Source: Sporanaerobium hydrogeniformans (lineage in GTDB: Bacteria > Bacillota > Clostridia > Lachnospirales > Cellulosilyticaceae). From it: 33,083 nt of DNA. This document shows positions 28,612 through 32,361 of this stretch, piece after piece. The stretch's first letter is position 1; each line of letters opens with the position of its first letter. The stretch is from NCBI RefSeq assembly GCF_002735925.1, contig NZ_PEDL01000026.1, forward strand, positions 1 through 33,083, in the 5' to 3' direction. Below the pieces are notes generated by a model. That model did not search any database. It saw nothing but the letters and a program-made list of their open reading frames with translations, and was not told the DNA's origin. Made by a program: the position numbers and the translations under genes.

Positions 28612-28654
28612 TTGCATTTCTAAAAAGCTTATACTATAATAGAACATATGTTCG
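28612..28654 (+). promoter_or_regulatory. Promoter with LexA (SOS) operator for the radical SAM-DUF4130 pair
   Basis: A -35 TTGCAT (28612-28617), 17-nt spacer and -10 TATAAT (28635-28640) are followed at once by AGAACATATGTTCG (28641-28654). This holds the perfect palindrome GAACATATGTTC, matching the Gram-positive LexA box CGAAC-N4-GTTCG except for the first base. The position over the transcription start would block RNA polymerase, so the downstream pair should be induced by DNA damage. Confidence 0.88.
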
Positions 28655-28676
28655 ATTTCGAAAAGAGGGTGAAAAT

Positions 28677-29987
28677 ATGGATATAAAAACAAAACTAGAG
28701 ATTTTATCAGATGCAGCTAAATATGATGTTTCCTGTTCTTCTTCTGGTTCACGTCGTCCTACGCAAAAAGGTGACCTAGGTTCTACAGCAGCAGCAGGTA
28801 TTTGTCATAGCTTTACCCCAGATGGCAGATGCATCTCATTATTTAAAATCCTGTTAACCAATTACTGCCAGTATGACTGCGCTTATTGTATGAATCGTAA
28901 ATCGAATGATATACCTCGTGCTGCCTTTACAGTAGATGAAGTGATCGACCTAACCATCCATTTTTATAGACGTAATTACATCGAGGGACTTTTTTTAAGC
29001 TCTGCTATTTTTAAAAGTCCTAACCATACCATGGAACTTCTCACTACTATTGTAAGAAAGCTCCGACAAGAACAAGGCTTTAAGGGTTATATTCATTTAA
29101 AAGCTATTCCTGGGGCAGATGAAATACTCATTCATGAAGCAGGACTCTATGTAGACCGTATGAGTGTTAACATTGAACTTCCTTCTTCTTCTTCCTTAAA
29201 GCGCCTTGCTCCTGATAAGAAAAAGGAAGAAATTTTTACACCTATGAAAAGTATTAGCACACATATTGTGAGCCATCAAGAAGAGTGGAAAAAGTCTCAA
29301 AAAGCTCCTCTGTTCGTTCCCGGTGGTCAAAGTACCCAGCTCATTATTGGGGCTACCCCAGATAGTGATTTAAATATCCTTACCCTTACCCAAAAGCTTT
29401 ATGATAAATACCGCCTCAAAAGAGTTTATTATTCAGCTTATGTACCTGTTAATAAAGATAAGGAACTTCCTTCTATTGAAAATCCTCCTACTTTAAGGGA
29501 ACATCGTCTTTACCAAAGTGATTGGTTACTTCGCTTTTATGGTTTTAGAGCGAATGAACTACTAGATGAAGAGCACCCTAACCTCGATATCTACTTTGAC
29601 CCTAAAACCTCCTGGGCACTTGCACATCTTGATCAATTTCCTGTAGAAATCAATAAAGCTTCTTATCCTTTACTGCTTCGTGTACCTGGGATTGGTGTCC
29701 GTAGTGCACAGCGCATTATGAGTAGCCGTCGCATTGCTCCACTTGATTACAGTGATTTAAAAAAACTAGGGATTGTATTAAAACGTGCCCAATACTTTAT
29801 CACCTGCAATACTAAATACTATGGTTCTGTAGCTTTAGATGAGGATAGAATACGTAAAGCTTTGAGGCCTACTTCTTTTTCTGCAGATATAGGTAAAACT
29901 TATGAACAGCTTAGTTTGTTTACCTCTTCCCCAAAACCTCTACTTCTTATTGAAGATAGCTTAAGTGCTTTAACAGGCGAAATATAA
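28677..29987 (+). CDS. Putative DNA modification/repair radical SAM protein (TIGR03916 type)
   Basis: A 436-residue radical SAM enzyme. The [4Fe-4S] ligands are Cys64, Cys68 and Cys71 in CQYDCAYC, with a further conserved head CSSSGSRRPTQKGDLG (residues 20-35). A helix-hairpin-helix segment near 330-350 (LLRVPGIGVRSAQRIMSSRR) is typical of DNA-binding repair proteins. Such proteins form a recognised but uncharacterised family paired with a DUF4130 protein and often near uracil-DNA glycosylase genes. The LexA operator in its promoter supports a DNA-damage role. GAGGG precedes the ATG. The partner starts 10 bp after its stop. The reaction is unknown. Confidence 0.85.
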   Translation: MDIKTKLEILSDAAKYDVSCSSSGSRRPTQKGDLGSTAAAGICHSFTPDGRCISLFKILLTNYCQYDCAYCMNRKSNDIPRAAFTVDEVIDLTIHFYRRNYIEGLFLSSAIFKSPNHTMELLTTIVRKLRQEQGFKGYIHLKAIPGADEILIHEAGLYVDRMSVNIELPSSSSLKRLAPDKKKEEIFTPMKSISTHIVSHQEEWKKSQKAPLFVPGGQSTQLIIGATPDSDLNILTLTQKLYDKYRLKRVYYSAYVPVNKDKELPSIENPPTLREHRLYQSDWLLRFYGFRANELLDEEHPNLDIYFDPKTSWALAHLDQFPVEINKASYPLLLRVPGIGVRSAQRIMSSRRIAPLDYSDLKKLGIVLKRAQYFITCNTKYYGSVALDEDRIRKALRPTSFSADIGKTYEQLSLFTSSPKPLLLIEDSLSALTGEI

Positions 29988-29997
29988 AGGAGCAACT

Positions 29998-30741
29998 ATG
30001 AAAGATTATGTTTATGATGGAAGCTTTGAGGGGCTTCTTACCACCCTTTTTTATACTTATAAAGAAAAAGACTCTCTATGTATTTATAAAAAGGAAGATT
30101 ACATCCCAAGTTTAATAGAAGAGGTTCTTACTATTATCACTGAAGAGGATAAAGCAGACCGCGTGTACCGTAGCCTTCTTTCTAAACTTTCTTTTGAAAC
30201 TCTCACCAATGTTTACCATCTTTATTTAAGTGATCTCCCCCAATCCGAAAATCTTATACTAGACTATATACGACTTTGCTATCAGTACTCTGCTACTATC
30301 AACCTCGCCAAAAATAATCCCATCATTCACAAAGTAGAGAACTATACTCGCAAGGTTACCCTTGAAGCCCATCGTATGATAGGCTTTGTACGTTTTAGAG
30401 AAATTCATTCGGGTATCTTTTATGCCCAAATTGAGCCAGATCATCATATCCTGCCTCTCATTATAGAGCATTTCCAAAAACGCTTTAGCAATCAGTATTT
30501 CATTATCCATGATTTAAAACGTGAATTAGCCCTTGTCTATAACAAACAAGAAGCTTACCTAAAAGATTTTTCACCTGAAGAGAAGGAGAAGCTTTTAAAT
30601 TTTGCTAACAAAGATGGATTTGAAGAACTCTTTAAAAGCTATTATAAAGCTACCACTATCCCTGAACGTCTTAATGAAAGACAACGCCGTTCTTACATGC
30701 CTCGTCGCTACTGGAAACATCTTTTTGAAGTCTCATCTTAA
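29998..30741 (+). CDS. DUF4130 family protein, partner of the radical SAM enzyme (TIGR03915 type)
   Basis: A 247-residue protein matching the DUF4130 'probable DNA metabolism' family: the N-terminal YVYDGSFEGLLTTLFYTY, the central KVTLEAHRMIGFVRFREI (about 118-135) with FYAQIEPDHHILPLI after it, and the C-terminal RQRRSYMPRRYWKHLFE. The family is nearly always found with the radical SAM protein encoded just upstream; here AAGGAG and a 10-bp gap suggest co-translation. Its biochemical function is not known. Being in one unit behind the LexA box, it should be SOS-induced too. Confidence 0.85.
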   Translation: MKDYVYDGSFEGLLTTLFYTYKEKDSLCIYKKEDYIPSLIEEVLTIITEEDKADRVYRSLLSKLSFETLTNVYHLYLSDLPQSENLILDYIRLCYQYSATINLAKNNPIIHKVENYTRKVTLEAHRMIGFVRFREIHSGIFYAQIEPDHHILPLIIEHFQKRFSNQYFIIHDLKRELALVYNKQEAYLKDFSPEEKEKLLNFANKDGFEELFKSYYKATTIPERLNERQRRSYMPRRYWKHLFEVSS

Positions 30742-30757
30742 ATCTGTGCACATTAAA

Positions 30758-30797
30758 ACTCACTTAACTCTATATGGGCGTATAGGGTTAAGTGAGT
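30758..30797. terminator. Hairpin terminator between the DUF4130 gene and the minus-strand small ORF
   Basis: A 17-bp stem (30758-30774 with 30781-30797; ACTCACTTAAC core, one T-G pair) and a 6-nt loop. On the minus strand it is followed by TTTTAATG, so it can end transcripts from the small ORF or the PadR unit; on the plus strand no T run follows, but the hairpin may still protect the mRNA end. Confidence 0.65.
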
Positions 30798-31041: not shown

Positions 31042-32361
31042 TTAATGATAAATAAATAATCCTTTTATAGCCTCTGTACAAGGAGCATTTAGTAGCTCAC
31101 CTTCTTCTCCCATCCCTTCAACTTTTAAAAGAATCTTTCCTTTTTTAAGAAGCAGTACTTCTCTTCCTTTAAAATAATAGGCTTCTTCTACATCATAGAG
31201 TCTTTCATCCAGCATCTGAGGCTCCCATCTTTCTATTTCCTCCAACATATTATTAAAAATAAATTCTGCCAGCCAAGCACTACGTGCCTCAATATATTGT
31301 GTCTCGATAACAGGTATATTTAAATTGGAGTCACGTGGTGCCCTTTCTATGTATTGATAGGAGGCTTTTACAAAAAAGGAATGTCCCTTATCCAACCTCA
31401 CACTTGGTTCCTCTTCCATTTCCTTAACATTCACTTCATTTAAGGTTAAAACAGGATAATATGCCGCTTCCTTTTGAAGCTCCCAGTCATTCTTTGTATA
31501 ATCACCTGTACTAATTAGCCATATACCTAAAAAGGGCCAAGCTAAAATACTTCCTACAATAAACAAAACAGCTATCCAATTAGCCTGCTTATTCTTCTTT
31601 TTCCGGCTCCAAGTTCCTATACCATAGCTTCCTATGGTAATGAATATAATAGGAATAAAACTGGCTATAACAACACGTGGTTCATTTCCAAAGTCACCTA
31701 TAGCACTCCATATAAGTAGAAAAACTATCAAAAGTACATATCCATAAGAAAAATAACCTCTGCATCTTGCTCCTTGTATAGAAGGAACTTTTAAGACTTT
31801 CTCTTCATTAAGTGCCTTAACTGCCTTTCTCCTATAAGTAAGCCATAGACTTAACATCACTATCAAATAACTCATAGCAAGTGGTACCCAAATAAGAGAC
31901 ATACTCCCCAAATAACTTAGTAAGCTTGTATAGTCAAAGTTTTGGATTCCCATTATAAACTGTATAAGTAATAAGGGTGTTAACATAAACCAAGGTAAAA
32001 GCTCCTTATTTAAGAAAGTAGCTGAGGCAAGCTTCGTTTCAATTTCTACATCTGTTTGAATAGGAATTGCTTCTTTCTTCTCTTTTTGTTTAAAGACCTT
32101 CATCACATGAATAGCCCCACTATAAGTCCAACCTGATTCCTCACATAAAGCAATGTAATCTTCCTCTTCTTGCTTGTCAAAAATATCTACATAATAAGAC
32201 CTAGACTTAGCTTCTTCACTCTTTTCAAATTTACCAAAAGGTAGTACCTTGGTTATTTGTTTAAGCTCATAGCCTTTAGCAGCCATTTGATTCAAATATA
32301 TTTGTAACGCCTTATAATCTAAGGTCATAAATCCTAGAAAGCCTATCCTTCCTTTACTCAT
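31042..32361 (-). CDS. DUF2812 domain membrane protein
   Basis: A 439-residue protein. The N-terminal DUF2812 domain (about 1-95, with MAAKGYELKQ and ESGWTYSG as landmarks) precedes a hydrophobic region of about five helices (120-300) and a C-terminal extracytoplasmic or soluble part. DUF2812 proteins are usually encoded next to PadR-like repressors, as here: the padR stop overlaps this start by 8 bp (ATGAGTAA). The function is unknown; envelope-stress sensing has been guessed from the context in other species. The gene is likely repressed by the PadR protein through 32700-32728. Confidence 0.83.
   Translation of the reverse strand: MSKGRIGFLGFMTLDYKALQIYLNQMAAKGYELKQITKVLPFGKFEKSEEAKSRSYYVDIFDKQEEEDYIALCEESGWTYSGAIHVMKVFKQKEKKEAIPIQTDVEIETKLASATFLNKELLPWFMLTPLLLIQFIMGIQNFDYTSLLSYLGSMSLIWVPLAMSYLIVMLSLWLTYRRKAVKALNEEKVLKVPSIQGARCRGYFSYGYVLLIVFLLIWSAIGDFGNEPRVVIASFIPIIFITIGSYGIGTWSRKKKNKQANWIAVLFIVGSILAWPFLGIWLISTGDYTKNDWELQKEAAYYPVLTLNEVNVKEMEEEPSVRLDKGHSFFVKASYQYIERAPRDSNLNIPVIETQYIEARSAWLAEFIFNNMLEEIERWEPQMLDERLYDVEEAYYFKGREVLLLKKGKILLKVEGMGEEGELLNAPCTEAIKGLFIYH

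Follow-up and report, generated by a model that had tools for sequence, protein, structure and literature searches.

The window analysed here is the whole 33,083-nucleotide stretch of contig NZ_PEDL01000026.1 (contig C18 of the genome) from Sporanaerobium hydrogeniformans, whose assembly (GCF_002735925.1; 3.74 Mb) is 99.66% complete. Its subject is a two-gene unit in which a radical S-adenosylmethionine (radical SAM) protein of family TIGR03916 (rSAM_link_UDG) is encoded together with a protein of family TIGR03915/DUF4130, downstream of a predicted LexA operator. These are the sole same-strand genes of the unit, and the next long open reading frame (ORF; 31042-32361) lies on the opposite strand. 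The elements of the locus, with the promoter elements, ribosome-binding site and repeat read from the sequence, are as follows.

28612-28617, + strand: candidate -35 element TTGCAT, weak (3 of 6 positions match TTGACA), at 17-bp spacing to the -10 element
28635-28640, + strand: -10 element TATAAT
28641-28654, + strand: predicted LexA operator AGAACATATGTTCG, recognised by sequence, genome context and conservation
28665-28671, + strand: ribosome-binding site GAGGGTG
28677-29987, + strand: TIGR03916 radical SAM protein, 436 amino acids (aa), 649.6 bits across the full model (cut-off 343.5)
29998-30741, + strand: TIGR03915/DUF4130 protein, 247 aa, TIGR03915 240.3 bits (cut-off 112.25) and PF13566 162.8 bits (cut-off 27)
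30758-30797, no strand assigned: inverted repeat 3' of the operon, a possible terminator without a T run

The original prediction, made from the sequence alone, had described a TATAAT element followed directly by a near-perfect LexA box, with only a radical SAM gene and its DUF4130 partner downstream. Both parts are confirmed, the first by the elements at 28635-28640 and 28641-28654 and the second by family scores above cut-off. The operator AGAACATATGTTCG is a perfect GAAC-N4-GTTC palindrome, immediately 3' of TATAAT and 5' of the two-gene operon. The promoter at 28612-28640 is absent from the list produced by a promoter scan, and a terminator scan reported none at 30758-30797.

In the window, CGAACRNNYGTTYG at up to two mismatches has 5 matches (4.72 expected), two of which are the two strands of the operator site itself; by this window-only count the motif is not above chance, so the argument for the operator comes from its genome context and its conservation. 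The exact core GAACN4GTTC is likewise not enriched as such in the genome, where it occurs at 13 places compared with 41 for a reversed control pattern. Both counts would suit a chance palindrome upstream of a pair that is free of LexA control. By ORF reading, six of the 13 exact cores fall within long coding frames and seven outside, and these seven precede recA, ruvAB, the TIGR03916/DUF4130 pair, a serine recombinase, a 155-aa ORF, a 39-aa micro-ORF and, at a distance of ~200 bp, an oxidoreductase-like ORF (locus L010). The recA core begins 35 bases 5' of the ATG, the same distance as in the TIGR03916/DUF4130 operon. One-mismatch LexA-type sites lie 5' of uvrA and dinB, and a GAACATATGTTT site lies 5' of lexA, whose product was found once in the genome (242 bits); lexA was named by family search, and recA, ruvAB, uvrA and dinB by reading translations without a family search. 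The pair carries in its promoter an operator resembling the other operators of the genome, as a member of the LexA regulon would. The recA gene itself is read in two overlapping frames (L008 1536-2042 and 2021-2590, 168 and 189 aa; G000 C22 ~241.6 kb) 3' of an intact LexA-type box, which may reflect a genuine frameshift or an error in sequencing.

Conservation was examined at orthologous loci. Of 24 genomes from the family of the source organism, 13 have the radical SAM gene, and of 291 from its class, Clostridia, 126 have a match (E<=1e-3, including weak matches to other radical SAM proteins). The 82 class loci used are a part of the family and class matches (the best-scoring plus 39 hand-picked loci; L110 was omitted as a near-duplicate of L089), and 78 of them supplied promoters (L040, L093, L094 and L097 were left out). 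Across 42 loci, the best match to GAACN4GTTC within 200 bp upstream was exact in 12 and had one mismatch in 25, two in 4 and three in 1, and the rule was relaxed to GAACN4GTT or AACN4GTTC once this result was known. Under the relaxed rule, a site is present in 62 of the 78 Clostridia promoters versus 26 of 1697 other windows of 200 bp taken from these loci (rate on shuffled promoters, 0.02), and in 26 of the 36 loci that were first examined once the rule had been set. Among named genomes, with phyla assigned from record titles and L137 ('bacterium') counted with Bacillota, a site lies within 250 bp upstream in 37 of 55 Bacillota loci versus a background of 37/2150, in 1 of 19 Bacteroidota loci versus 20/794, and in 0 of 6 loci of other phyla versus 6/236. 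The low count in Bacteroidota is expected, because LexA in that phylum binds different motifs according to the available text of PMC8565304. The relaxed rule recovers a site within 250 bp upstream in 16 of 25 lexA loci.

The placement of the box differs between lineages. It lies directly 3' of the -10 element in the family of the source organism (TATAAT or TAGAAT one base 5' of GAAC in 9 of 12 same-family box loci, the source locus included), and elsewhere it often lies over the -35 element, with a downstream -10 that is mostly TG-extended. A simple rule applied to the 62 boxes puts 27 after a -10 and 28 over a -35 (6 in both categories and 13 in neither), versus shuffled rates of 0.137 and 0.130. 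Through the series L028-L109, the position of the box relative to the promoter varies by lineage and the box itself is retained. That the box is kept across Clostridia despite changing promoter geometry speaks strongly against a chance palindrome, a reading now so improbable that it was rejected; conservation decided the matter despite the non-enrichment in window and genome. The control by LexA and the SOS response that had been proposed for the pair is thereby supported, by conservation of the box together with the matching LexA-type sites elsewhere in the genome, and the suggested search for the operator 5' of orthologous pairs in other Clostridia found the box conserved rather than lost. 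On these comparisons, the gene pair is probably LexA-controlled and induced by DNA damage.

SOS control of such pairs is not new, and the pairs and their control switch are largely known; what is added here is the wide conservation test, the clamp motif described below and the DHH-like model of DUF4130. For the comparison with earlier work, CAC3344 of Clostridium acetobutylicum is assumed to be a DUF4130 gene, and COG4277 is taken to be the TIGR03916 family. The CAC3343-CAC3344 operon, a pair of the same description as that in the window, has been proposed as LexA-controlled in an account whose available portion gives no wide conservation test, clamp motif or structural reading (PMC3828012). 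A COG1573-COG4277 uracil-DNA glycosylase (UDG) operon is placed in the SOS networks of Bacteroidetes, and cited also for Verrucomicrobia and Alphaproteobacteria, in the accessible sections of PMC8565304; it is likewise an SOS-linked two-gene operon, but its partner is a uracil-DNA glycosylase, unlike the DUF4130 partner here. The core Gram-positive SOS regulon, as outlined in the excerpted text of PMC7739468, includes an unspecified radical SAM protein.

The pairing of the two genes is close to constant: 74 of the 82 class loci have a DUF4130 ORF, as do 78 of the 80 named ones. No such ORF was found at eight class loci, namely L041, which lies at a contig end, and L093-L099, distant TIGR03916 relatives that come mostly from genomes without DUF4130 and share 35-38% identity where they are members of alignment A1. 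Three of these relatives that were scanned score 312-319 bits, below the TIGR03916 cut-off of 343.5, and one (L098) retains a LexA-type box 74 bp upstream. Genome G107, the source of L094, has one TIGR03915 match, which lies beside its other radical SAM copy.

The radical SAM protein ends in a tail that carries a short motif.

29907-29921, + strand: QLSLF, aa 411-415, a predicted beta-clamp-binding motif by the published consensus, in a low-confidence tail (predicted local distance difference test, pLDDT, <50 in the model)

A review describes the peptide that binds the beta clamp as Q-aliphatic-x-[L/M]-[F/L] or a hexamer form, located in some proteins within disordered regions (PMC11139829), and QLSLF is the clamp-binding motif of Bacillus subtilis PolC, with a KD of 3.8 uM (PMC12309361). 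The PolC motif is identical and also C-terminal, but it belongs to a polymerase with measured clamp binding, whereas clamp binding by the radical SAM protein is a prediction; the PolC of the source genome ends QLDLLESFGF. Within the last 60 residues, the published consensus is matched by 64 of 80 named orthologues versus 7 of 530 neighbouring ORFs (shuffles 5.5%) and by 41 of 81 class loci versus 6 of 229 neighbouring ORFs (shuffles 3.5%), and the high-affinity form QLxLF/QLxLxF by 47 of 80 and 22 of 81 versus 0 of 530 and 0 of 229. Because these sequences are related, the counts do not represent independent events, and some species may occur in both the named and the class set. All 59 of 59 aligned proteins have Q411, and the surrounding tail is variable and poorly conserved. 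A looser tail pattern, drawn up with alignment A1 already in view, matches 71 of 80 (2.9 on average in shuffles, 9 at most); the main counts use the published consensus. In a third panel, selected from the matches (12 of 158 plasmid records and 1 of 10 phage records) and containing 10 proteobacterial proteins among its 13, the consensus is matched by 11: ten have the motif as their very last residues (QLSLF, QLTLF, QLSLL, QLQLL, QLRLL or QLSLGF) and Fusobacterium has QLKLF three residues from the C-terminus. The non-matches are Sulfitobacter, with no motif, and Gemmatirosa, with QLSLW, which is outside the rule. By record name, matches occur in Bacillota, Bacteroidota, Pseudomonadota, Fusobacteriota, Elusimicrobia and Lentisphaerae, and the Geotalea protein has the hexamer form QLSLPF.

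The model indicates a tail that is probably disordered, and the motif suggests that it probably docks the radical SAM enzyme on the DnaN sliding clamp. The tail might instead dock DUF4130 or some other partner, as DUF4130 is almost always encoded close by, and distant members from genomes without DUF4130 have a weaker form of the motif (QLTLW, QISIY) or none. This is improbable in view of the fit to the published clamp consensus, which extends to the hexamers QLSLPF and QLSLGF, of the location in a low-confidence tail, and of the retention of QISIF (G062) and QLTLW (G116, G060) where no TIGR03915 was found; docking on the clamp is preferred. In a library of open-licence papers, none contains both 'radical SAM' and 'QLSLF', and among the matches listed for the clamp literature radical SAM appears only in one work on DnaN-targeting antibiotics.

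Other features of the radical SAM protein bear on its chemistry and on its contact with DNA.

28734-28832, + strand: codons of C20, C43, H44 and C52, an invariant Cys/His set (59 of 59 in alignment A3)
28866-28889, + strand: CX3CX2C radical SAM motif (C64, C68, C71), invariant in alignments A1 and A3
29631-29771, + strand: helix-hairpin-helix (HHH) region, aa 319-365, from HHH_3 and weak Protein Data Bank (PDB) profile matches

The CX3CX2C motif lies in the barrel, as in the radical SAM superfamily, and PF04055 (Radical_SAM) scores 29.2 bits, just below its cut-off of 29.5. The AlphaFold2 model has a mean pLDDT of 83.6, with values below 50 for residues 401-436, and its predicted barrel resembles LipA, HydE, MqnE and BioB (Z ~16-17), a likeness that gives no substrate. 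The N-terminal C20, C43, H44 and C52, which are conserved as a set but absent from the distant members L093, L095 and L096 in alignment A1, could form a second metal site. The HHH that had been read in this protein finds a counterpart in HHH_3 at residues 322-351 (25.6 bits, just below the Pfam cut-off of 27) and in the ComEA- and RuvA-type chains among the weak matches of a PDB profile search with the radical SAM family; that search matched parts of the protein only, in the HHH or cluster regions, with a best E of 0.001. An SplB-like enzyme, reversing UV thymine lesions directly, would also combine radical SAM chemistry with SOS control, since SplB is a radical SAM protein that is SOS-regulated in several species (PMC8565304, available text). 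We think this unlikely to be the function here: the NCBIfam scan gives TIGR03916 and a weak ThiH but no photoproduct-lyase family (E<=0.001), the best structural matches are the four enzymes named above, and the neighbour gene is UdgX in six annotated proteobacterial plasmid regions. No SPL is present among the matches listed in two structure searches (50 each), although one could stand beyond those.

The fold of the second protein was approached through a model with a pLDDT of 93.6.

30352-30612, + strand: DHHA1-like part of DUF4130, aa 119-205, tentative (from the model, at moderate Z and without hhalign support)

Foldseek returned four chains at E<=1e-3 (best 3.3e-4), two from the phosphodiesterase PggH and two from a PAP phosphatase, all of which we take to be DHH members. 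The top 30 matches of a second structural aligner were PAP phosphatase, RecJ and Cdc45 (Z 9.1 to 6.8 over 171-199 residues). The predicted fold is tentatively RecJ/Cdc45-like; it is held as tentative because the Z scores may reflect a common arrangement, because hhalign of DUF4130 against 15 proteins of DHH kind (NrnA-type and a few others) gave a local P of 0.12 and no global alignment, and because the catalytic set is not conserved. The DHH catalytic Asp/His set is not among the invariant columns of alignment A4, and the letters DHH at aa 148-150 are not conserved, so that DUF4130 is predicted to be like the RecJ/Cdc45/DHH phosphoesterases in fold but lacks their conserved DHH-type metal site. 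Membership of the DHH group by profile comparison was considered and found unsupported (the hhalign result above; no Pfam DHH or DHHA1), a Pfam scan of 64 DUF4130 proteins showing no DHH/DHHA1 among the 25 of 36 families listed. A DUF4130 profile search of the PDB found no solved relative, with one chance-level match (E 0.36).

A further clue comes from Proteobacteria. Seven annotated plasmid regions from alpha- and betaproteobacteria have as their next gene one labelled UdgX (six regions) or uracil-DNA glycosylase (one region). In the one region scanned, from Leisingera aquaemixtae (L267), DUF4130 and UdgX are fused, with TIGR03915 at residues 10-237 (195 bits) and TIGR03914 (UdgX) at 239-470; the fusion adjoins a radical SAM gene whose product ends QLSLF, whereas the clostridial DUF4130 is without a UdgX domain. 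TIGR03914 has no match in the source genome, and in the 291 class genomes it has matches in 119 with none over cut-off, as expected for other UDGs. UdgX excises uracil and forms a covalent bond with the abasic site, as stated in the accessible part of PMC10359453. The top matches in the open-licence library contain UdgX or radical SAM, never both.

Taken together, the best reading of the locus, to which we give a probability of roughly 0.7, is that it encodes a radical enzyme which is induced through LexA, tethered to the clamp and active on damaged DNA at stalled forks. RecA filaments would trigger LexA cleavage and the pair would be expressed; the radical SAM enzyme would then dock through its flexible QLSLF tail in the peptide pocket of DnaN, in the manner of PolC and the SOS polymerases, and contacts of its HHH region would place it on DNA at the stalled fork, where a 5'-deoxyadenosyl radical would repair or modify the damaged nucleotide. 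DUF4130 would most likely serve as an adaptor that binds DNA, RecJ/Cdc45-like in its fold and lacking a conserved phosphoesterase centre; in Proteobacteria this adaptor accompanies UdgX, which captures uracil or abasic sites. The original prediction of a role in repairing or modifying damaged DNA gains support, at the level of sequence, because the HHH region, the conserved clamp-binding peptide and the UdgX link in Proteobacteria all point to DNA. Its statement that the two families have no defined reaction also stands, as no reaction is assigned to the SOS pair in the family libraries or literature examined. Because the DUF4130 adaptor goes with UdgX in Proteobacteria, the likeliest substrate may be a lesion derived from uracil, an abasic site or an oxidised base, which is a guess and rather unlikely to prove right.

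Several observations weigh against this reading of the pair. The box is missing from 16 of the 78 promoters. In a LexA check of 26 genomes (15 of the 16 without a box and 11 with one), LexA was absent or below cut-off in 4 of 15 box-less genomes (none in G208 and G140, weak in G313 and G095) versus 1 of 11 with a box (G267), which is suggestive, not strong, as a sign that loss of LexA causes loss of the box. The split recA leaves the SOS inducibility of this strain in doubt, and the profile comparison of DUF4130 with DHH-kind proteins gave no support for the DHH resemblance, as described, which has middling Z scores behind it. Only the 41 of 81 class loci fit the clamp consensus, many others having QLSFF, QLSIF or QLTLW, and some (e.g., L030, L034, L093, L095) have no motif in the last 50 residues. 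Among 12 genomes scanned, seven with distant homologues have no TIGR03915 anywhere (G025, whose assembly is only 73% complete, G072, G232, G062, G116, G060 and G088).

The same components could also mean that the pair promotes SOS mutagenesis, through lesion tolerance or base modification, and not repair. DUF4130 is called a predicted mutagenesis-related enzyme in the text available from PMC3765255, and clamp tags are typical of translesion polymerases. However, no polymerase or deaminase family was matched in the NCBIfam and Pfam scans, and the combination of radical SAM, HHH and UdgX link would better fit base processing, which makes a mutagenic role unlikely. A bolder proposal, which we hold only tentatively and with the odds somewhat against it, is that the pair forms the centre of a radical-based DNA-repair machine that is tethered to the replisome and present in at least six phyla, made of an SOS-induced, clamp-carried radical SAM enzyme and a Cdc45/RecJ-like DNA adaptor that is fused to UdgX in some Proteobacteria. 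Such a machine would perhaps process abasic sites or their adducts at stalled forks, and a clamp-riding radical enzyme would, to our knowledge, be the first of its kind. The clamp tag points to the sliding clamp as the probable workplace of this orphan SOS enzyme and makes it testable with a short peptide against DnaN; binding of the peptide would mean that the replisome recruits the radical SAM enzyme, and would narrow the hunt for its substrate to lesions at stalled forks.

Three of the other perfect LexA-type cores in the genome precede genes of separate interest. One, CGAACATATGTTCT, lies ~20 bp 5' of the 155-aa ORF (L001 1014-1481, - strand; G000 C4 ~78235), which had no match in a Pfam scan and which we take, by eye, to be ComK-like. 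Another lies 5' of the serine recombinase of a mobile element adjoining tmRNA and smpB (L005/L018; G000 C11 ~289.8-291.4 kb), where SOS-induced excision of the element is possible. The third lies 5' of the 39-aa micro-ORF MSVAGTIDDVLKQIQLLIRIYGDVTLRDIERSVLAIRNK (L003; G000 C11 ~94043), possibly a small SOS protein. The radical SAM gene, whole or in part, is also present in unannotated faecal records named 'Bacteriophage sp.' (MT839076.1, MT835935.1, MT835514.1, MT839232.1, MT838308.1, MT839858.1, MT837097.1 and MT835750.1).

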